Assembly (NCBI RefSeq): GCF_014023125.1
Contig: NZ_CP048914.1
Location: 1,082,698-1,146,697, forward strand
Direction: 5' to 3'
DNA: 64,000 nucleotides
From: Candidatus Xianfuyuplasma coldseepsis
GTDB lineage: Bacteria; Bacillota_I; Bacilli_A; Izemoplasmatales; Izemoplasmataceae
Part shown: positions 363 through 12,910 of the stretch, in pieces
Layout: the number at the start of each line of letters is the position of its first letter
How positions within the stretch are numbered: the stretch's first letter is position 1
Program-made: the position numbers and the translations under genes
The notes under the pieces: model-generated
Told to the model about the DNA's origin: nothing
Database searches by the model: none
Seen by the model: only the letters and a program-made list of their open reading frames with translations

Positions 363-401
363 ATACAAAATCCTCCTTATAATCTAGGTATAGTATACCA
401 T

Positions 402-431
402 AAAAAAGAGAGACTTTTATGTCTCTCTTTT
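402..431 (-). terminator. Intrinsic terminator after the InlB/cohesin lipoprotein
   Basis: An 11 bp stem (AAAAGAGAGAC / GTCTCTCTTTT) with a six-base loop is followed on the minus strand by a run of six T. It lies just past the stop codon at 436 and closes the minus-strand operon 5352-436. Confidence 0.85.
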
Positions 432-435
432 GGTA

Positions 436-1353
436 TTATTCAGTTGTAAACGGAATGATATCATAATCCGTATCCACAATGGTATACTGTTCTGTCACAT
501 CGATGAACTCATCAACCGAAATTGTGAGATCGATCGCATCGTTATTTAGAATATCAAACGTTAGTGTAATAATAACCGTTGTGTCTTCGATGGGGTTAAT
601 TGCATCGACATAATTAAATGTCAGAATCCCATCTACCGCATCATTGACAACATTCTCTAAACCATTGGTGTAACTCGTTAGGTCAAGTTTTGTGTGATCA
701 TAACCGATTTCCATTTCATATCCAACAAATCGTACGGCACCATCAATGATAATATCAACGACTAACGTCTCCGTATCCATCGAGGCAATGTTTGCCCAAA
801 TGACATTGTCTTCAGTATAATGAATATCCGAAGCCCACCGGGCATAGATATCAAAATCATAATTGGGCATCACCGCTAATTCAAGTGGTACAGTAAGTGC
901 TTCATCAGTATACCAATCGATAAAGAGATGGTCTGTGTATGTTGGAAGTGGAATTTCAACAATGCTGTCGCCTGTTTGAAACATTACATCATACGAGGCT
1001 TCGCCGTTTTCGGGATGAATCGTAATCGTATGCGATTCCCCTTCCCATACAGCATAGAGGGTAATACTTGACGATGATATCGTTGTGAAATTAAGATTAA
1101 ACAACGAGTCATCATCCTCGGTTAAGGACCATCCAAGGAAGGTATATCCTTCTTTGACAGGAGTAGGCAACGTTAGTGAAATATCGGTTTTTGAGATTTC
1201 CATCGGTTGGACTACGTTCCCACCAAGGGTATCAAAGTAGACGATTAATGTGGTATCTTCTTCCTCGCCACCCTCAGGGTTTAACAAGAAACAGGAGGAA
1301 AGAAACAATACCAAAAGCATCGTTATTGATAATAGACTGATTCGCTTAAACAT
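436..1353 (-). CDS. Lipoprotein with two InlB-type repeats and a cohesin-like domain
   Basis: The product is a 305-residue exported lipoprotein. I chose the ATG at 1353 because AAGGA lies about 11 bases upstream; an in-frame ATG at 1365 overlaps that site. The signal peptide ends in a lipobox LFLSSC. Residues about 35-105 and 106-175 are two InlB B-repeat (Flg_new) units with the GYTFLGW and IDWYTDEAL signatures. Residues about 180-300 look like a cohesin-type beta sandwich (VGYEMEIGYDHTKL, LTFNYVD). It is the last gene of an operon with two other cohesin-like proteins and lies 39 bases after the middle one. A role as a surface adhesion or scaffold protein is inferred, not shown. Confidence 0.75.
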   Translation of the reverse strand: MFKRISLLSITMLLVLFLSSCFLLNPEGGEEEDTTLIVYFDTLGGNVVQPMEISKTDISLTLPTPVKEGYTFLGWSLTEDDDSLFNLNFTTISSSSITLYAVWEGESHTITIHPENGEASYDVMFQTGDSIVEIPLPTYTDHLFIDWYTDEALTVPLELAVMPNYDFDIYARWASDIHYTEDNVIWANIASMDTETLVVDIIIDGAVRFVGYEMEIGYDHTKLDLTSYTNGLENVVNDAVDGILTFNYVDAINPIEDTTVIITLTFDILNNDAIDLTISVDEFIDVTEQYTIVDTDYDIIPFTTE

Positions 1354-1392
1354 ATCAAACCACATCCTTTGTAGTAGTCTTTGAAGGAACCA

Positions 1393-2103
1393 TTATTGTG
1401 GTTCTAGAGTAGTAATTAGCCCAGCAATATAGAGTTGAATCTGAGCGGCATCAGTTAAATCCAATACATCATCATGATTGATATCAGCCAAGGCTTGTTT
1501 GGTTTCTGACAAGGTGATTAACCCTTCCATATGAAGTTGGATTAACGCGACATCGGAGATGGTAACCATCTCATTGAAATCAACATCACCATATTGTCCA
1601 ACCCGAACTCCTGGAAAATCAAAAAGTACGTCGTCAATCACTGCTAGATTATTCTCTGAATCGAGGGTAATGAACTCATGATAATACGATACACTTTCAC
1701 TAATAACACCATAATCCCCACTGGTTATTCCTTGATTTGCTGTGAAGTATAACGTAAATAGTACGACCTCACCGTTTAGTTTCGTATTGATATCGACGTA
1801 GTTAATGAGGAGTTCACCACTCGTTGTGGAATTGATGGTTACCGCACCACCTAGTGCGGTAGAACCAACAATATTATCGAAGGTAAACATCGTGTCATCA
1901 TACACAAGCATCGTTTGAAACCCGATGAGATCTGTTGCTTCCGATACCAAAATATCCATACCAAAGGTCATTTCTGGAGCAATGATCATGTCTCGTGAAC
2001 TGTGAACCGTAATCGTTGATGTCTCAGCATGTACAGGGGCTGTTGAAAATATGGCTATCATCAATAGTGTAAAAACACTAATGAACACTTGTAGTTTTTT
2101 CAT
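1393..2103 (-). CDS. Secreted cohesin-like plus dockerin protein
   Basis: This 236-residue protein has a classic cleavable signal peptide ending PVHA (residues 1-26). Residues about 28-160 form a cohesin-like domain (DLIGFQTMLVYDDTMFTF, GELLINYVD). Residues about 167-232 contain two dockerin type I repeats: GDVDFNEMVTISDVALIQLHM and ADINHDDVLDLTDAAQIQLYI, with the Asp/Asn ligands spaced as in Ca-binding loops. The start at 2103 has AAGGAGG seven bases upstream. It lies 30 bases after the solute-binding fusion gene, whose first 240 residues have the same cohesin-like/dockerin architecture, so the two are paralogous over that part. A cohesin and a dockerin in one chain could self-associate; this is inference. 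Confidence 0.8.
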   Translation of the reverse strand: MKKLQVFISVFTLLMIAIFSTAPVHAETSTITVHSSRDMIIAPEMTFGMDILVSEATDLIGFQTMLVYDDTMFTFDNIVGSTALGGAVTINSTTSGELLINYVDINTKLNGEVVLFTLYFTANQGITSGDYGVISESVSYYHEFITLDSENNLAVIDDVLFDFPGVRVGQYGDVDFNEMVTISDVALIQLHMEGLITLSETKQALADINHDDVLDLTDAAQIQLYIAGLITTLEPQ

Positions 2104-2133: not shown

Positions 2134-5100
2134 TTATAACCACTTCCATCCTAGATAGTATCCATCAATATGAAGAACAACATATGCATCGGACCCAGTA
2201 TAGTTACCAGCCCATGTTACAGCATATACTTCCATTTGATCAATTGGAGCACCAGTGTTTACAGCGATTTCAGCTAATGTGCTATATCCCATACTACTTA
2301 GGTATGCATTTCCAGCAATGGCGGCATCATCAGCTAATAGTCCATCAACACTTCCTAATGGGTATCCAGAGTGTGCTTGTATTGCTGATTCTGCATCGGT
2401 GAAGAGTGGATAAATACCGGCATCATATACTCTATATTCACCATTTAATTCTTGAACAACCATTAAGAAAGTTTCACCATTATCAGAGACAATAATCTCG
2501 GCATATAATCCATCCAAACCGTTTGCTACTTGGAGATTTGCTAGGGTATCGCCTAAGACATATTGAGCAATGTTGGTTCCATCACTTCTTGTAGCGACAA
2601 CCATACCTTCCATATCCATGTACGCGTCAATTAGTTCTGTCGTACTATCAAATACATATTGGATAATACCATCACGAACGTAGACACGACGCTGTAATGC
2701 TTGAGACAATGCGTTGAACGACCAAATTTCATGAACCAAGGTTCCATCAACATTGTGATAGGATACTTCAATGTTTGGTGTGTGGGTATCCATACCCCAG
2801 TTTAAGGTAAATCCAGAGACATTATCATCTTGATATACTTCCAAGAAACCAGGAGCATCTATTAAGGAACCACTAATTCCACCAATACCTAAATCACTAT
2901 TGGCAACCATCATGTAATCATAGTAGTTACTTGGGAATTCGGTATCATGAACATCAATGATTACTTGAATGTAATTGGTATCATCAACGAACAAACTTTC
3001 ATACTGCTGTTTTAAGCTTGTTGCCGCAGCTTGAGCAGTGGTATTACCACTGGATGCATATCGTAGTTCTAATACAATTTGGGTGTATGCTTCTGGAGTA
3101 CCAGGAGTATAGTAGCCATCAGAAATCCCTTGATTTACCGCAGCAATAAAGTAATCATATGCCATCATTGCATCATATCCATAAGTTCCCATTCCAAAGT
3201 CATCCAAGATTGCTTGTCCAGCAACGGATCCCCGTACGGAAATTCCACCTTCGGCATCAATGAAGTAATAGTCTGTAAACAAGGCATAGGCTGGTAAGTA
3301 CGTCAGGGCATCTGTCACTGCCAACTGATAACGATCAATACCATAATACAGTGCCTTCCGCATATCAACATATTGTAATAATGGTTCCGGTATGAATTCA
3401 TTATTAATTCCCGTATTTGGATACTGAGCAATGTAGGCATCCCGATTTTCTTCGGTACCAAAGGCGTTGATCATCAACCGCCATGTGGTTGTACCTGGAA
3501 CCACTGATATACGAGGATCATTCACAAAATCATTTACTCGAGTACTTGGCACGCGAGCGGTATCCAATCGACCTGCTAAGAACTCTTCAAATACTTGATC
3601 ATCCGCTTCAATATAGCGATATTGAATACCAGTGAAATGATACAACTCTTCATGGGCATATAATGGGTTCTTTGCAAAGAATAAGAATTGTCCTTGAGTC
3701 CGTTCATCTACGGTATATGGACCACTATATGCAACATTTTCAAGTGATGAACCATATGTATTTTCTCCCAAGTATTCATACAACTCTTGATTGATAGGAC
3801 TCCATCCTTGGTTTGTTGTCATATACTTGATATCAAACATAGATTTTTCGAAGTCGAATTCTAAACGAATGGTATTGTTATCAATGGCTTTTAAACCAAC
3901 ATCAGTCCATGTTTTGGTACCATCAATATATTCTTGAGCATTCTTAATACCGTTCGTAATAAAATCTCCACCACCAGCAGTCGCACGGAACCATTGATTA
4001 TCGAGTGCTGTTTGCCATGTCCAGATGTAATCATTGGCATCAAGAACATCATGCCCTGCAGGTAATAAACTCGTATCAAACGTTGGATAGTAGTTCCAGA
4101 CTAAGTCCGTACGAAGCGGAATATCCCATGTGGTTGCATAGACTTTTCCATTGATAATTTGGGGATCAACAGCTACCGGATTATTGGCGGCTAAATCGGG
4201 ATTGATCTCAAAGTTTGATACGTCATTCCCAAAATAGAATTTGTAGAGCTTACCTGTAAACAATTCAATAATATCCATAGAAGCTGAATCGTCAACAATG
4301 TATGGATTATATTCCGTAGGATAATACGAAAAATGATCGCGCCATGTGTACTCTCCAGGATTACCATATACCGCATCATACATATAGACGGTTGAATCAT
4401 CTGCAGTTAATGAAGAGTATTCCTCACCAAACTGTAAGACACCATTGTATTCAGGAGAAAATAACGCAGTCCGATCCGAAAACATAACCCGTGAGGCCGA
4501 TGTATATAGTGGGACACCACCGGACATTGTATCAAGCAGATACCGTTCTGCCGCGGCGAATAGAATAGCCTTGTCTTCGGTATCTATTTGTGTTAAGTCA
4601 TAGACGCCATTGGCGTAGTTATAAGTAATGTTTACCTGACCATCCGGTTCTAACGTCGAAATAATACCCGCAACATAAAGCTGCACTTTTGCAACATCAA
4701 TAACCGACACAAAACCATCTTGATTGACATCGGCAAAGTATGCTTCCCAGGTTTCCAAACTCGTCAACTCAGCAATGTACAATTGCATAATTGCCGCATC
4801 GGTAATATTTACCGTACCATCTAAATTAGCATCCCCAATATACCCACGTTTCACTTGATCAAAATTAAATGTGACAACATCCACAGGAATAACATTATAG
4901 AGTTCATCAATCGTTATAAATTGATGCATATACGCTGGATCTTCCGTGACGACATCCACATCTTCGTATAGAATTGTACTGCTTGCGTGGAAGGTTACTG
5001 TGAAGAGAACTTGAGATCCATTCAGTGGTTGTAGCACATCCACATAGTTTAAAACCAGTTCTCCAGGAATCGTATCGTTGATTGTCATCGGATTCCCTAA

Positions 5101-5352
5101 ACTTGATGAATCCTCAACGGAAACCAGTGTAAACTTAGATGTATCGTAGAGTAGTTTGGTTTGAAACCCAACCAAATCCACGGCGTTATCCGCAACAATA
5201 TCAATACTAAAATCAGAATCCGGCGTTATGTATTCAAGTTCAGTACTTGTAATCATTAACCCGTTTCCTTCGGCGGCTATATCACGCAATGTTACAAATG
5301 ATACAAAGCCAACCACTAGAAGCATTACAACAGCTACACTTTTCTTAAGCAT
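2134..5352 (-). CDS. Cohesin-like/dockerin/family 5 solute-binding fusion protein
   Basis: The product is a 1072-residue exported protein. I chose the ATG at 5352 (MLKKSVAVVMLL) because AAAGGGA lies 8 bases before it; longer frames upstream run through the leader and terminator. A signal peptide covers about residues 1-28. Residues about 30-165 are cohesin-like (DLVGFQTKLLYDTSKFTL). Residues about 170-240 hold two dockerin repeats (GDANLDGTVNITDAA and ADVNQDGFVSVIDVA). From about 245 onward it resembles SBP_bac_5 oligopeptide-binding proteins (VDMRKALYYGIDR, AYSGPYTV), with about 200 extra residues at the C-terminus. No ABC permease genes are adjacent. It could capture peptides at the surface and be docked through the Ca-binding modules. 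The module order is clear; function is inferred. Confidence 0.78.
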   Translation of the reverse strand: MLKKSVAVVMLLVVGFVSFVTLRDIAAEGNGLMITSTELEYITPDSDFSIDIVADNAVDLVGFQTKLLYDTSKFTLVSVEDSSSLGNPMTINDTIPGELVLNYVDVLQPLNGSQVLFTVTFHASSTILYEDVDVVTEDPAYMHQFITIDELYNVIPVDVVTFNFDQVKRGYIGDANLDGTVNITDAAIMQLYIAELTSLETWEAYFADVNQDGFVSVIDVAKVQLYVAGIISTLEPDGQVNITYNYANGVYDLTQIDTEDKAILFAAAERYLLDTMSGGVPLYTSASRVMFSDRTALFSPEYNGVLQFGEEYSSLTADDSTVYMYDAVYGNPGEYTWRDHFSYYPTEYNPYIVDDSASMDIIELFTGKLYKFYFGNDVSNFEINPDLAANNPVAVDPQIINGKVYATTWDIPLRTDLVWNYYPTFDTSLLPAGHDVLDANDYIWTWQTALDNQWFRATAGGGDFITNGIKNAQEYIDGTKTWTDVGLKAIDNNTIRLEFDFEKSMFDIKYMTTNQGWSPINQELYEYLGENTYGSSLENVAYSGPYTVDERTQGQFLFFAKNPLYAHEELYHFTGIQYRYIEADDQVFEEFLAGRLDTARVPSTRVNDFVNDPRISVVPGTTTWRLMINAFGTEENRDAYIAQYPNTGINNEFIPEPLLQYVDMRKALYYGIDRYQLAVTDALTYLPAYALFTDYYFIDAEGGISVRGSVAGQAILDDFGMGTYGYDAMMAYDYFIAAVNQGISDGYYTPGTPEAYTQIVLELRYASSGNTTAQAAATSLKQQYESLFVDDTNYIQVIIDVHDTEFPSNYYDYMMVANSDLGIGGISGSLIDAPGFLEVYQDDNVSGFTLNWGMDTHTPNIEVSYHNVDGTLVHEIWSFNALSQALQRRVYVRDGIIQYVFDSTTELIDAYMDMEGMVVATRSDGTNIAQYVLGDTLANLQVANGLDGLYAEIIVSDNGETFLMVVQELNGEYRVYDAGIYPLFTDAESAIQAHSGYPLGSVDGLLADDAAIAGNAYLSSMGYSTLAEIAVNTGAPIDQMEVYAVTWAGNYTGSDAYVVLHIDGYYLGWKWL

Positions 5353-5402: not shown

Positions 5403-5457
5403 TAAAAAAACAGCACAAACCAGTTTGAAAAAACATGTTTGTGCTGTATCCTGTTGT
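5403..5457 (-). terminator. Terminator hairpin inside the leader of the solute-binding fusion gene
   Basis: A perfect 11 bp stem (ACAGCACAAAC at 5410-5420 with GTTTGTGCTGT at 5437-5447) has a 16-base loop and is followed on the minus strand by a run of seven T at 5404-5410. It sits about 50 bases upstream of the start at 5352 and downstream of the promoter at 5537-5565, so it lies in the leader and may attenuate the gene. Confidence 0.75.
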
Positions 5458-5536: not shown

Positions 5537-5565
5537 AATATACCATATTTAGAAACGATTGTAAA
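5537..5565 (-). promoter_or_regulatory. Sigma-A-type promoter of the cohesin/dockerin operon
   Basis: On the minus strand TTTACA (5565-5560) is separated by 17 bases from TATATT (5542-5537). It is the only good promoter between the ydjC-like stop at 5579 and the gene at 5352, and leaves a leader of about 175 bases. Confidence 0.65.
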
Positions 5566-11260: not shown

Positions 11261-12910
11261 ATGAAACGAATTATGCTAGTAATTGTATTCGGAGTACTCA
11301 CGTTATTAGTCGCATGTGAAACCATTACTCCATCAGTTACTGAAACAGTTACCATCACCTATGAAACAAACGGTGGTACCTTAGGAAGCGATGCTACTTT
11401 GGAAGTAGACAAAGGGACTGCAATTAGTGAACCAACCGTTACCAAAGAAGGACATACTTTACTGGGATGGTACAGTGATTCGACATTTAATGTCGCATAT
11501 GATTTTGCGCAAGGGGTTCAAGGAAATATTACCATCTATGCCAAATGGCAACCGCTTGAACTGGTTGTTACGTATTATACGGATGCAGAGTATGACACGA
11601 TTATTACGTCGTACGGAGAGTCCTTTCCAACCACAGATGATCCTGTCGTCGAAGGATACCACTTTGATGGCTGGTACAGCGATCAAGAATTAACCACACC
11701 ATTTGAATTTACATCTGCAGTTGTCACGGACAACACAACATTGTATGGTAAGTTTACCATTGAAGAATATACCCTAACAATTATTAACATGGGCAATATT
11801 GTCAGTGAGACTACGTATACATATGGAGAACTTGTCGATATTCCCACAGATTTCACGATGGAAGGTTATATATTTAATGGTGTCTATGAGGAAGAACAAT
11901 TTATCAACCAAGTCATCTCGAATTTTGCCATGCCAGCGGATAATGTAACACTATACATTGAAATGGAAGAATTTAGTCAAGTTCTTACAATATATTTAGT
12001 ACCATTTCGTCCAGGAGAGGAACTTCTTGACATTTCTGAAGACTTAAAAACACTCATGTTGGCAGCTCTTGAGGATGCTGGTTCGTCCTATACTGATATT
12101 GAGTTCTATGTAGGGTCTACCTACGAAACCGTAGGTGAAGCATTATTAGTAGGAATTGCTGATGTCGCCTATTTACCTGCCACAACATATGTTATGTACC
12201 ATGATGTTGAATCCAGTCCGATTGAACCATTGGTTGCATTGACACGTATTGGATTGAATAAAGACTATGACGACGCGAATCTGTGGAATGATGGCATGCC
12301 GACGACGTCGGACTCTCAAGTTCAGGTTCCATATTACCGATCTCTAATTATTGCCGGACCAAGTGCTGCAGGACAAGCAGTTGCTGCCAAAGTCAATAGC
12401 GGTGCACCACTTGTTTGGGACGATGTCAAAGACTTAAACTGGTGTGTACGTAGTGTTACCTCAAGCAGTGGATATGTCTATCCCAATATGTGGCTCAATA
12501 CGAAATTTGGTAAAACCTATGATGATATAACCGGTTACGTTACAACAACTGCCGGATATGGAAACAGTATGAGTAGTTTAGCAGCCGAAATCTGTGACGT
12601 TGCAACATTCTACGCCGATGCACGTCGCGATTATGCAGACGAATGGGAAACCGATTATGGTAAAACCGATATTTGGACAGAAACCAACGTGATTGGTGTC
12701 AGTGCCCCAATTATGAATGATGTAATTGCCTATAATGCAGACAATCTTGATACCACAATTATCGAGATATTGGAAGAGTTCTTTGTGACTCTAGGGGATG
12801 ACCCCATGTATTGGCAATTATCTGGATTATTCTATAACGATGGATTTATACTTATTGATGATACGGACTATGATCCAGTCCGAGAAGCATTGGAGTTCTA
12901 TGGATATTAA
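11261..12910 (+). CDS. InlB-repeat lipoprotein fused to a PhnD-like solute-binding domain
   Basis: A 549-residue lipoprotein: lipobox LLVAC (Cys at about 19), then three InlB-type repeats at residues about 27-95, 96-165 and 166-235, with GHTLLGWYSD and GYHFDGWYSD signatures in the first two. From about 240 to the end it looks like a phosphonate/phosphate-type periplasmic-binding domain (PhnD superfamily): LTIYLVPFRPGEEL opening, GIADVAYLPATTYVM, and the long SGAPLVWDDVKDLNWCVRSVTSSSGYVYP segment, where such proteins bind an anion at a helix N-terminus. No transporter genes lie next to it. The ligand could be phosphonate, phosphite or another anion; the fold assignment is fair, the ligand a guess. 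Confidence 0.72.
   Translation: MKRIMLVIVFGVLTLLVACETITPSVTETVTITYETNGGTLGSDATLEVDKGTAISEPTVTKEGHTLLGWYSDSTFNVAYDFAQGVQGNITIYAKWQPLELVVTYYTDAEYDTIITSYGESFPTTDDPVVEGYHFDGWYSDQELTTPFEFTSAVVTDNTTLYGKFTIEEYTLTIINMGNIVSETTYTYGELVDIPTDFTMEGYIFNGVYEEEQFINQVISNFAMPADNVTLYIEMEEFSQVLTIYLVPFRPGEELLDISEDLKTLMLAALEDAGSSYTDIEFYVGSTYETVGEALLVGIADVAYLPATTYVMYHDVESSPIEPLVALTRIGLNKDYDDANLWNDGMPTTSDSQVQVPYYRSLIIAGPSAAGQAVAAKVNSGAPLVWDDVKDLNWCVRSVTSSSGYVYPNMWLNTKFGKTYDDITGYVTTTAGYGNSMSSLAAEICDVATFYADARRDYADEWETDYGKTDIWTETNVIGVSAPIMNDVIAYNADNLDTTIIEILEEFFVTLGDDPMYWQLSGLFYNDGFILIDDTDYDPVREALEFYGY

Follow-up and report, generated by a model that had tools for sequence, protein, structure and literature searches.

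How can a secreted peptide-binding protein serve a bacterium without a cell wall if it has neither a lipid anchor nor a permease encoded beside it? This question is raised by a locus of Candidatus Xianfuyuplasma coldseepsis zrk13, which the available text of its description presents as a wall-less cold-seep bacterium that appears to be cultured (PMC8397711). We analysed a stretch of 64,000 nucleotides from its genome (contig NZ_CP048914.1, positions 1,082,698 to 1,146,697), hereafter called the window. On the minus strand, gene 1 (2134..5352, 1072 amino acids) encodes a signal peptide, a cohesin, a dockerin and a substrate-binding protein (SBP) domain of family 5 (SBP5, OppA type) with a C-terminal extension. 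Downstream, gene 2 encodes a further cohesin-dockerin (Coh-Doc) protein and gene 3 a lipoprotein with a C-terminal cohesin. We consider it rather probable that the three genes form a docking cassette, in which a duplicated SBP is attached to a membrane stalk by cohesin-dockerin binding instead of a lipid anchor.

Domains and folds of the cassette proteins

Gene 1 starts at ATG 5352, within an open frame that reaches back to 5508 and on which the Pfam scores were taken. A hydrophobic stretch recognised by eye marks the signal peptide (residues 1-27, 5272..5352), as a sequence-only reading of this gene had stated. It has no lipobox, and no cysteine was seen by eye in the signal region. The OppA proteins of Gram-positive bacteria and mollicutes are usually anchored through a lipobox. 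The family 5 domain named by the same reading was readily recovered, its SBP_bac_5 core (PF00496, 2824..4047) scoring 75.7 bits with a cut-off of 32.4; the homologous SBP region including the extension spans 4620-2137. The dockerin (4675..4836) reaches 38.7 bits with Dockerin_1 (PF00404, cut-off 22.9) and forms three helices in the structural model. Its two canonical calcium loops, DANLDGTVNITD and DVNQDGFVSVID, both have D or N at loop positions 1, 3, 5 and 12. The reading had counted two dockerin calcium-binding repeats; the calcium loops are present, but both belong to a single dockerin. The cohesin (4849..5271) falls on either side of the PF00963 cut-off of 24.1 bits, with 21.5 as a protein and 25.1 for the same stretch in a six-frame search. 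The check by hidden Markov models proposed in the sequence-only reading thus gave two matches over the cut-off and one that depends on the type of search. Genes 1 and 2 matched no NCBIfam family at cut-off.

The fold of the first domain was addressed with AlphaFold2. The model of the Coh-Doc part of gene 1, made from five aligned sequences, has a mean predicted local distance difference test score (pLDDT) of 89.0 and a predicted template modelling score (pTM) of 0.74. In a Foldseek search, each of the 50 listed entries of the Protein Data Bank (PDB) is a cohesin or a scaffoldin that bears one, the best being 6kge_A (E 2.7e-9). Since all the listed matches contain cohesins, structure prediction, to which the earlier reading had submitted its claim of a cohesin-like first domain, speaks for that claim, and the possibility that this domain is something else was rejected. 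The sequence profile of the same part leads to solved dockerins (8x39_A, 2.9e-11) and to a solved cohesin (6kgc_A, 0.0037).

Gene 2 (1393..2103, minus strand, 236 amino acids) consists of a signal peptide, a cohesin and a dockerin without any payload and is therefore adaptor-like. Its dockerin scores 29.3 bits (PF00404, over the cut-off) and has two calcium loops with D or N at positions 1, 3, 5 and 12. The cohesin was recognised from an alignment with gene 1 (38-41% identity) and with a tailored profile. Gene 3 (436..1365, minus strand, starting at ATG 1365 or 1353) bears an LSSC lipobox, followed by InlB/Listeria-Bacteroides repeats (Flg_new, 68.8 bits) and a C-terminal cohesin (24.6 bits, cut-off 24.1). 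The model of this cohesin (439..828), made from four sequences, is less sure (pLDDT 74.3, pTM 0.71). Its 50 listed PDB matches are cohesin entries, led by 4ums (E 1.4e-6), a few of which (2o4e, 3kcp, 4fl4) have titles that do not name the cohesin module; the sequence profile finds cohesins at E 0.075 or worse only. According to the models, the cohesin beta-sandwich fold is adopted in both gene 1 and gene 3.

The three genes are separated by 30 and 27 bp, and within the cassette only the cohesin-only protein, gene 3, has a lipobox. Genes 2 and 3, which the sequence-only reading had left out, are the likely docking partners of gene 1. No permease or ATPase gene adjoins gene 1, whose neighbours are a ydjC-like gene upstream and genes 2 and 3 downstream.

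Rarity and recurrence of the cassette

We searched the host genome, a single contig of 1,958,905 bases, for dockerins and cohesins. Two dockerins exceed the cut-off, those of genes 1 and 2, and neither is on an enzyme. Two cohesins exceed it in the six-frame search, to which the tailored profile adds that of gene 2, and all lie in the cassette. Among 90 genomes of the order, five have dockerins, five have cohesins (one below the cut-off) and four have both; neither module occurs in any of the three further genomes from the genus. Because the modules are rare in the order and confined to three adjoining genes in the host genome, their adjacency is not due to chance.

One explanation for such a locus would be a degradative complex resembling a cellulosome, with cohesins gathering dockerin-bearing hydrolases and the SBP capturing the products that these release. 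It could draw on strain zrk2, which encodes, in addition to a cassette, a three-cohesin protein adjoined by a dockerin subtilase, and on genome G039, where a dockerin subtilase lies beside a cohesin protein. In the host genome, however, both dockerins are taken up by the cassette and none is left for an enzyme. No multi-cohesin protein that could act as a scaffoldin was detected there, and no Pfam match to a glycoside hydrolase, carbohydrate-binding module or peptidase was found in the three cassette proteins. The last result agrees with the sequence-only reading, which had noticed the lack of a glycoside hydrolase in gene 1; glycoside hydrolases were not searched genome-wide. We therefore regard a degradative complex as quite improbable.

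The docking cassette is supported by its recurrence. A full or partial cassette is present in seven genomes, namely those of the window, zrk2 (G044), G200, G661, G612 (locus L048), G611, where it is cut at a contig edge, and G239, and in 7/7 a lipoprotein-type protein ending in a cohesin adjoins it. N-termini were also read by eye at five other loci (zrk2, G200, G661, G239 and L048); there, the Coh-Doc proteins begin with ordinary signal peptides, and the neighbouring protein with the C-terminal cohesin bears a lipobox. The payloads vary and include SBP5, SBP1/8 and others. In zrk2 (CP076020.1), a member of another family, an InlB lipoprotein with a cohesin-like end stands beside a Coh-Doc-Ig-SBP1/8 protein. 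G200 and its near-identical congener G661, from the same class outside the order, combine Coh-Doc-SBP5 with a lipoprotein carrying a C-terminal cohesin. L048 (M50B101) encodes one Coh-Doc protein alone and one Coh-Doc-InlB protein with a weak FGE match (14.0 bits, cut-off 23.3), together with two InlB-cohesin proteins, of which one is truncated by the contig start and the other has a lipobox. The cohesin truncated at the contig edge of G611 lies beside a lipoprotein with a 25.7-bit cohesin, and G239 has an InlB-cohesin lipoprotein (with N gaps) beside Coh-Doc with a payload of no assigned family. A phylum-wide search gave no further full cassette. The partial matches from the class search are mostly dockerin only; open reading frames were inspected for six of these loci and Pfam matches for one. 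Hits in G087, G017 and G046 were followed as far as Pfam, and C16 of G087 looks unlike the rest and may be of foreign origin.

The calcium loops and cohesins are conserved across these loci. All 14 loops of seven Coh-Doc proteins have D or N at positions 1, 3, 5 and 12 and I, V or L at position 10, and 12/14 have QL or QQ at positions 17-18. Equal residue types in both repeats would fit the two-fold binding known for dockerins. In a cohesin tree of 13 rows, a single branch (support 92/95) separates the lipoprotein cohesins (6 rows) from the Coh-Doc cohesins (7 rows). This split occurs in 90% of the bootstrap trees; no branch is starred and long branches are present. The tree includes the second cohesin protein of L048, the first being cut at the contig start, and omits the three-cohesin protein of zrk2, the cohesins of G039, G611 and G661. 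Given the split, stalk and docked protein appear as two conserved parts.

Some related proteins were seen in passing. Dockerin subtilases close to cohesin proteins were noted at L043 (7116-14663 and 15297-19178; zrk2, with three cohesins) and at L046 (4991-10393); they may represent a proteolytic variant of this docking principle. At the C-terminus of the zrk2 Coh-Doc-SBP1/8 protein (L044 4812-8783), a nuclease domain resembling SNase scores 21.5 bits, with a cut-off of 21. G388 encodes a glucosaminidase with a C-terminal dockerin (L056 103-3446), beside a protein whose C-terminal hydrophobic stretch may be a divergent cohesin, with no Pfam cohesin match.

Origin of the fused binding proteins

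The only other SBP5 of the host genome is the lipobox-bearing lipoprotein of a full oppABCDF operon (L001), followed by its permease genes. The SBP part of gene 1 is 64% identical to this operon OppA. In an SBP5 tree of 28 rows, gene 1 groups with the operon OppA of its own genome (99/98), and the G200 fusion likewise with the G200 operon OppA (100/100). A single fused ancestor with unbroken descent of the SBP part for the two fusions was rejected by 197 log units (approximately unbiased test, p-AU 3.4e-8).

Residues 963-1072 of gene 1 (window 2466-2137) agree with the operon OppA at 77-83% of fourfold sites, compared with 24-57% elsewhere, and the 3' end of gene 1, its last ~110 residues, thus shows recent gene conversion with the operon OppA. 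Because of this local conversion, we ran the one-clade test again with only the first 700 residues of the SBP part, where the window pair (95/95) and the G200 pair (100/99) were kept and one clade was again rejected (p 1.9e-5). Both the fourfold-site comparison and this test leave out the duplicate rows L005 and L083. When the segments are taken separately, the G200 pair is well supported (92-99) and the window pair weakly (33, unresolved, 67, 98). An ancient conversion of the whole gene could mimic separate descent of the two SBP5 fusions.

The third fusion follows the same pattern. The best match of the fused SBP1/8 of zrk2 (76%) is the lipoprotein SBP of a sugar-type ATP-binding cassette (ABC) operon in its own genome, compared with 64% identity to that of a congener; this kinship is based on identity comparison. 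In the operon SBP, a lipobox and linker take the place of Coh-Doc before the common Ig-like domain. Among the sequences compared, the closest relative of each of the three Coh-Doc-SBP fusions (3/3) is thus a lipoprotein SBP linked to an operon in its own genome. The simplest reading of these relationships is that an operon SBP was joined to the Coh-Doc module at least three times. As for the operon itself, the host OppA type with its C-terminal extension is shared with G013, G050 and G200, and the congeners G002 and G003 have another type; a transfer of the opp operon is possible.

Neutral shuffling of domains, with no docking function and with the SBP as a decaying duplicate, would account for the longer branches of the fused SBP5 compared with their operon sisters (0.50 vs 0.19 and 0.74 vs 0.098). 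However, the frames and both calcium loops are intact, the fusion has been repeated and the neighbour has stayed constant. Moreover, the fused SBP part of G200 and G661 has a low ratio of non-synonymous to synonymous substitution rates (dN/dS 0.092 at a dS of 0.028), similar to that of the operon copy (0.09, dS 0.125), which suggests purifying selection in this one pair. Neutral shuffling is in our view scarcely credible.

The SBP might also have been retained for a purpose other than uptake. Every Coh-Doc protein holds both a plug and a socket, and such proteins could polymerise head to tail on the stalk into a coat or an adhesive fibre with the SBP as a sticky or sensing head. The OppA of Mycoplasma hominis is reportedly an adhesin, which we count in favour of this idea, as we do the lack of a permease beside any of the SBP fusions and the payloads that are not SBPs, namely that of G239 without an assigned family and the InlB repeats with the weak FGE match in L048. 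On the other hand, in 3/3 SBP fusions the payload is related to a transport SBP encoded by the same genome, and the SBP5 core has been kept. Of 194 sites without variation among six non-docked copies, the window fusion changed 23; each of these six copies, compared with the other five, changed 11-54 of 205-248. A structural or adhesive complex is thus unlikely.

Docking model and known systems

We suggest that gene 3 would form a lipid-anchored stalk, consisting of its lipobox and InlB repeats and ending in a cohesin, and that the products of genes 1 and 2 would be secreted without a lipid anchor, carrying a dockerin and a second type of cohesin. The gene 1 dockerin would bind the stalk cohesin, directly or via the adaptor-like gene 2 protein, and this calcium-dependent binding would do the job of the absent lipobox. 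As the lipid anchor is found only on the cohesin stalk and the SBP has a dockerin, docking would bring the SBP back to the membrane. Since each docked protein presents a cohesin, chains or mixed arrays could form, which the gene 2 protein could lengthen or branch. The docked SBP, whose binding fold is closely related to that of the operon OppA, probably passes its presumed peptide ligands to OppBCDF encoded elsewhere; we infer this from the complete permease operon of the one other SBP5 and from the orphan OppA-type receptors discussed below. The proposal of the sequence-only reading that the binding protein is held in a docked complex thereby gains support and is extended, as a membrane-anchored cohesin is predicted two genes downstream and recurs in other genomes.

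Several observations weigh against this docking model. The gene 2 cohesin and the lipoprotein cohesins of zrk2, G200 and L048 have no Pfam cohesin match, the latter three having been called by alignment. The dN/dS of the fused SBP comes from a single species pair with few substitutions (dS 0.028); that of the lipoprotein in the same pair, G200 and G661, is 0.53 on very few changes (dS 0.011). Furthermore, the gene 1 dockerin has three possible partners, namely the cohesins of genes 2 and 3 and the one in its own chain. More generally, and only tentatively, wall-less bacteria may use plug-in receptors, with secreted SBPs placed on a shared lipid-anchored cohesin stalk. Operon SBPs would be duplicated and their lipobox and spacer swapped for Coh-Doc, and the receptor repertoire and its surface stoichiometry would be decoupled from the transporter operons.

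Near the cassette, two lipoproteins with InlB repeats are fused to other SBP families, one in the window (11261-12910, plus strand, phosphonate-type PF12974) and one at L002 (6805-8040, minus strand, SBP_bac_3); in the host genome, such repeats apparently act as SBP stalks. Since lipobox, InlB stalk and SBP are here united in a single chain, genes 3 and 1 look like the same layout split at a reversible docking joint.

Regarding transcription, a candidate promoter upstream of gene 1 (5537..5565, minus strand; TTTACA-17-TATATT, 10/12 with TG before the -10 element) is a consensus match only, and 45 sites of such quality were found with 36.7 expected in shuffles. A terminator-like hairpin with a T run between this site and gene 1 (5404..5447, minus strand) is not significant (z -1.43) and would either attenuate transcription of the cassette or terminate that of the ydjC-like gene upstream. 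No Rfam family matched, and the idea that the gene 1 leader contains a known riboswitch was rejected. Directly 3' of gene 3, a palindromic terminator-like hairpin (398..431), whose minus-strand copy has a T run, is the likely end of the transcription unit.

Cohesin-dockerin pairs outside cellulosomes are known (PMC5244752, PMC9705933), and their role is called not known in the available part of a 2017 review (PMC5244752). For AfuCoh76/AfuDoc75 of Archaeoglobus fulgidus (PDB 2xdh), strong specific binding is reported in the accessible text of PMC9705933. The same structure is among the fold matches of the gene 1 cohesin. One of the two A. fulgidus proteins presumably carries both a cohesin and a dockerin, and we know of no SBP in this pair and of no native function assigned to it. 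The cohesins of secreted glycoside hydrolases from Clostridium perfringens (PDB 2jh2, 2vo8, 2w1n) share the fold of the gene 3 cohesin and its non-cellulosomal use; those modules are found on secreted enzymes, whereas here they are on a membrane stalk and on SBPs. Gene 2 resembles the monovalent adaptor scaffoldins of cellulosomes, of which we take ScaC of Ruminococcus flavefaciens to be an example. Like gene 2, these scaffoldins have one cohesin, one dockerin and no catalytic part, as far as the available text of PMC4959524 describes them. In contrast to them, no cellulosome or dockerin-bearing glycoside hydrolase was found here, and the membrane anchor is a lipoprotein.

AliA/AliB and PrgZ/TraC, orphan receptors of the OppA type that rely on a shared chromosomal permease, are all lipoproteins. 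Gene 1 is like them an SBP5 without its own permease in a genome with one complete Opp operon, and differs from them in lacking a lipobox and in having docking modules. That SBPs have been joined to one and the same module repeatedly, in different genomes, would be natural evidence that docking can replace a lipid anchor. The cassette would also offer a concrete function for non-cellulosomal cohesins and dockerins, and suggests a route by which wall-less bacteria could display exchangeable surface receptors in a lineage reconstructed, in the available part of PMC10868615, as having lost its sortases.

In the literature searched, which included few subscription papers, we found no SBP docked by cohesin and dockerin in Mycoplasmatota, and the terms dockerin, cohesin and oligopeptide do not appear in the available text of PMC8397711. 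The sequence-only reading had considered the design unusual; it is not without precedent, as dockerin-bearing SBPs of ABC transporters, of the NikA/OppA and TroA types, have been noted in anaerobic methanotrophic (ANME) archaea (Chadwick et al. 2022, PMC9012536, in the part available to us). Those proteins share with gene 1 an OppA-type SBP with a dockerin and a suspected docking at the cell surface. The accessible part of that work makes no mention of an SBP-borne cohesin, of a neighbouring lipoprotein-cohesin or of operon SBPs as a repeated source. As far as the literature was searched, the conserved lipoprotein-cohesin partner, the SBP-borne cohesin, the wall-less hosts and the repeated recruitment are what is new in the cassette.

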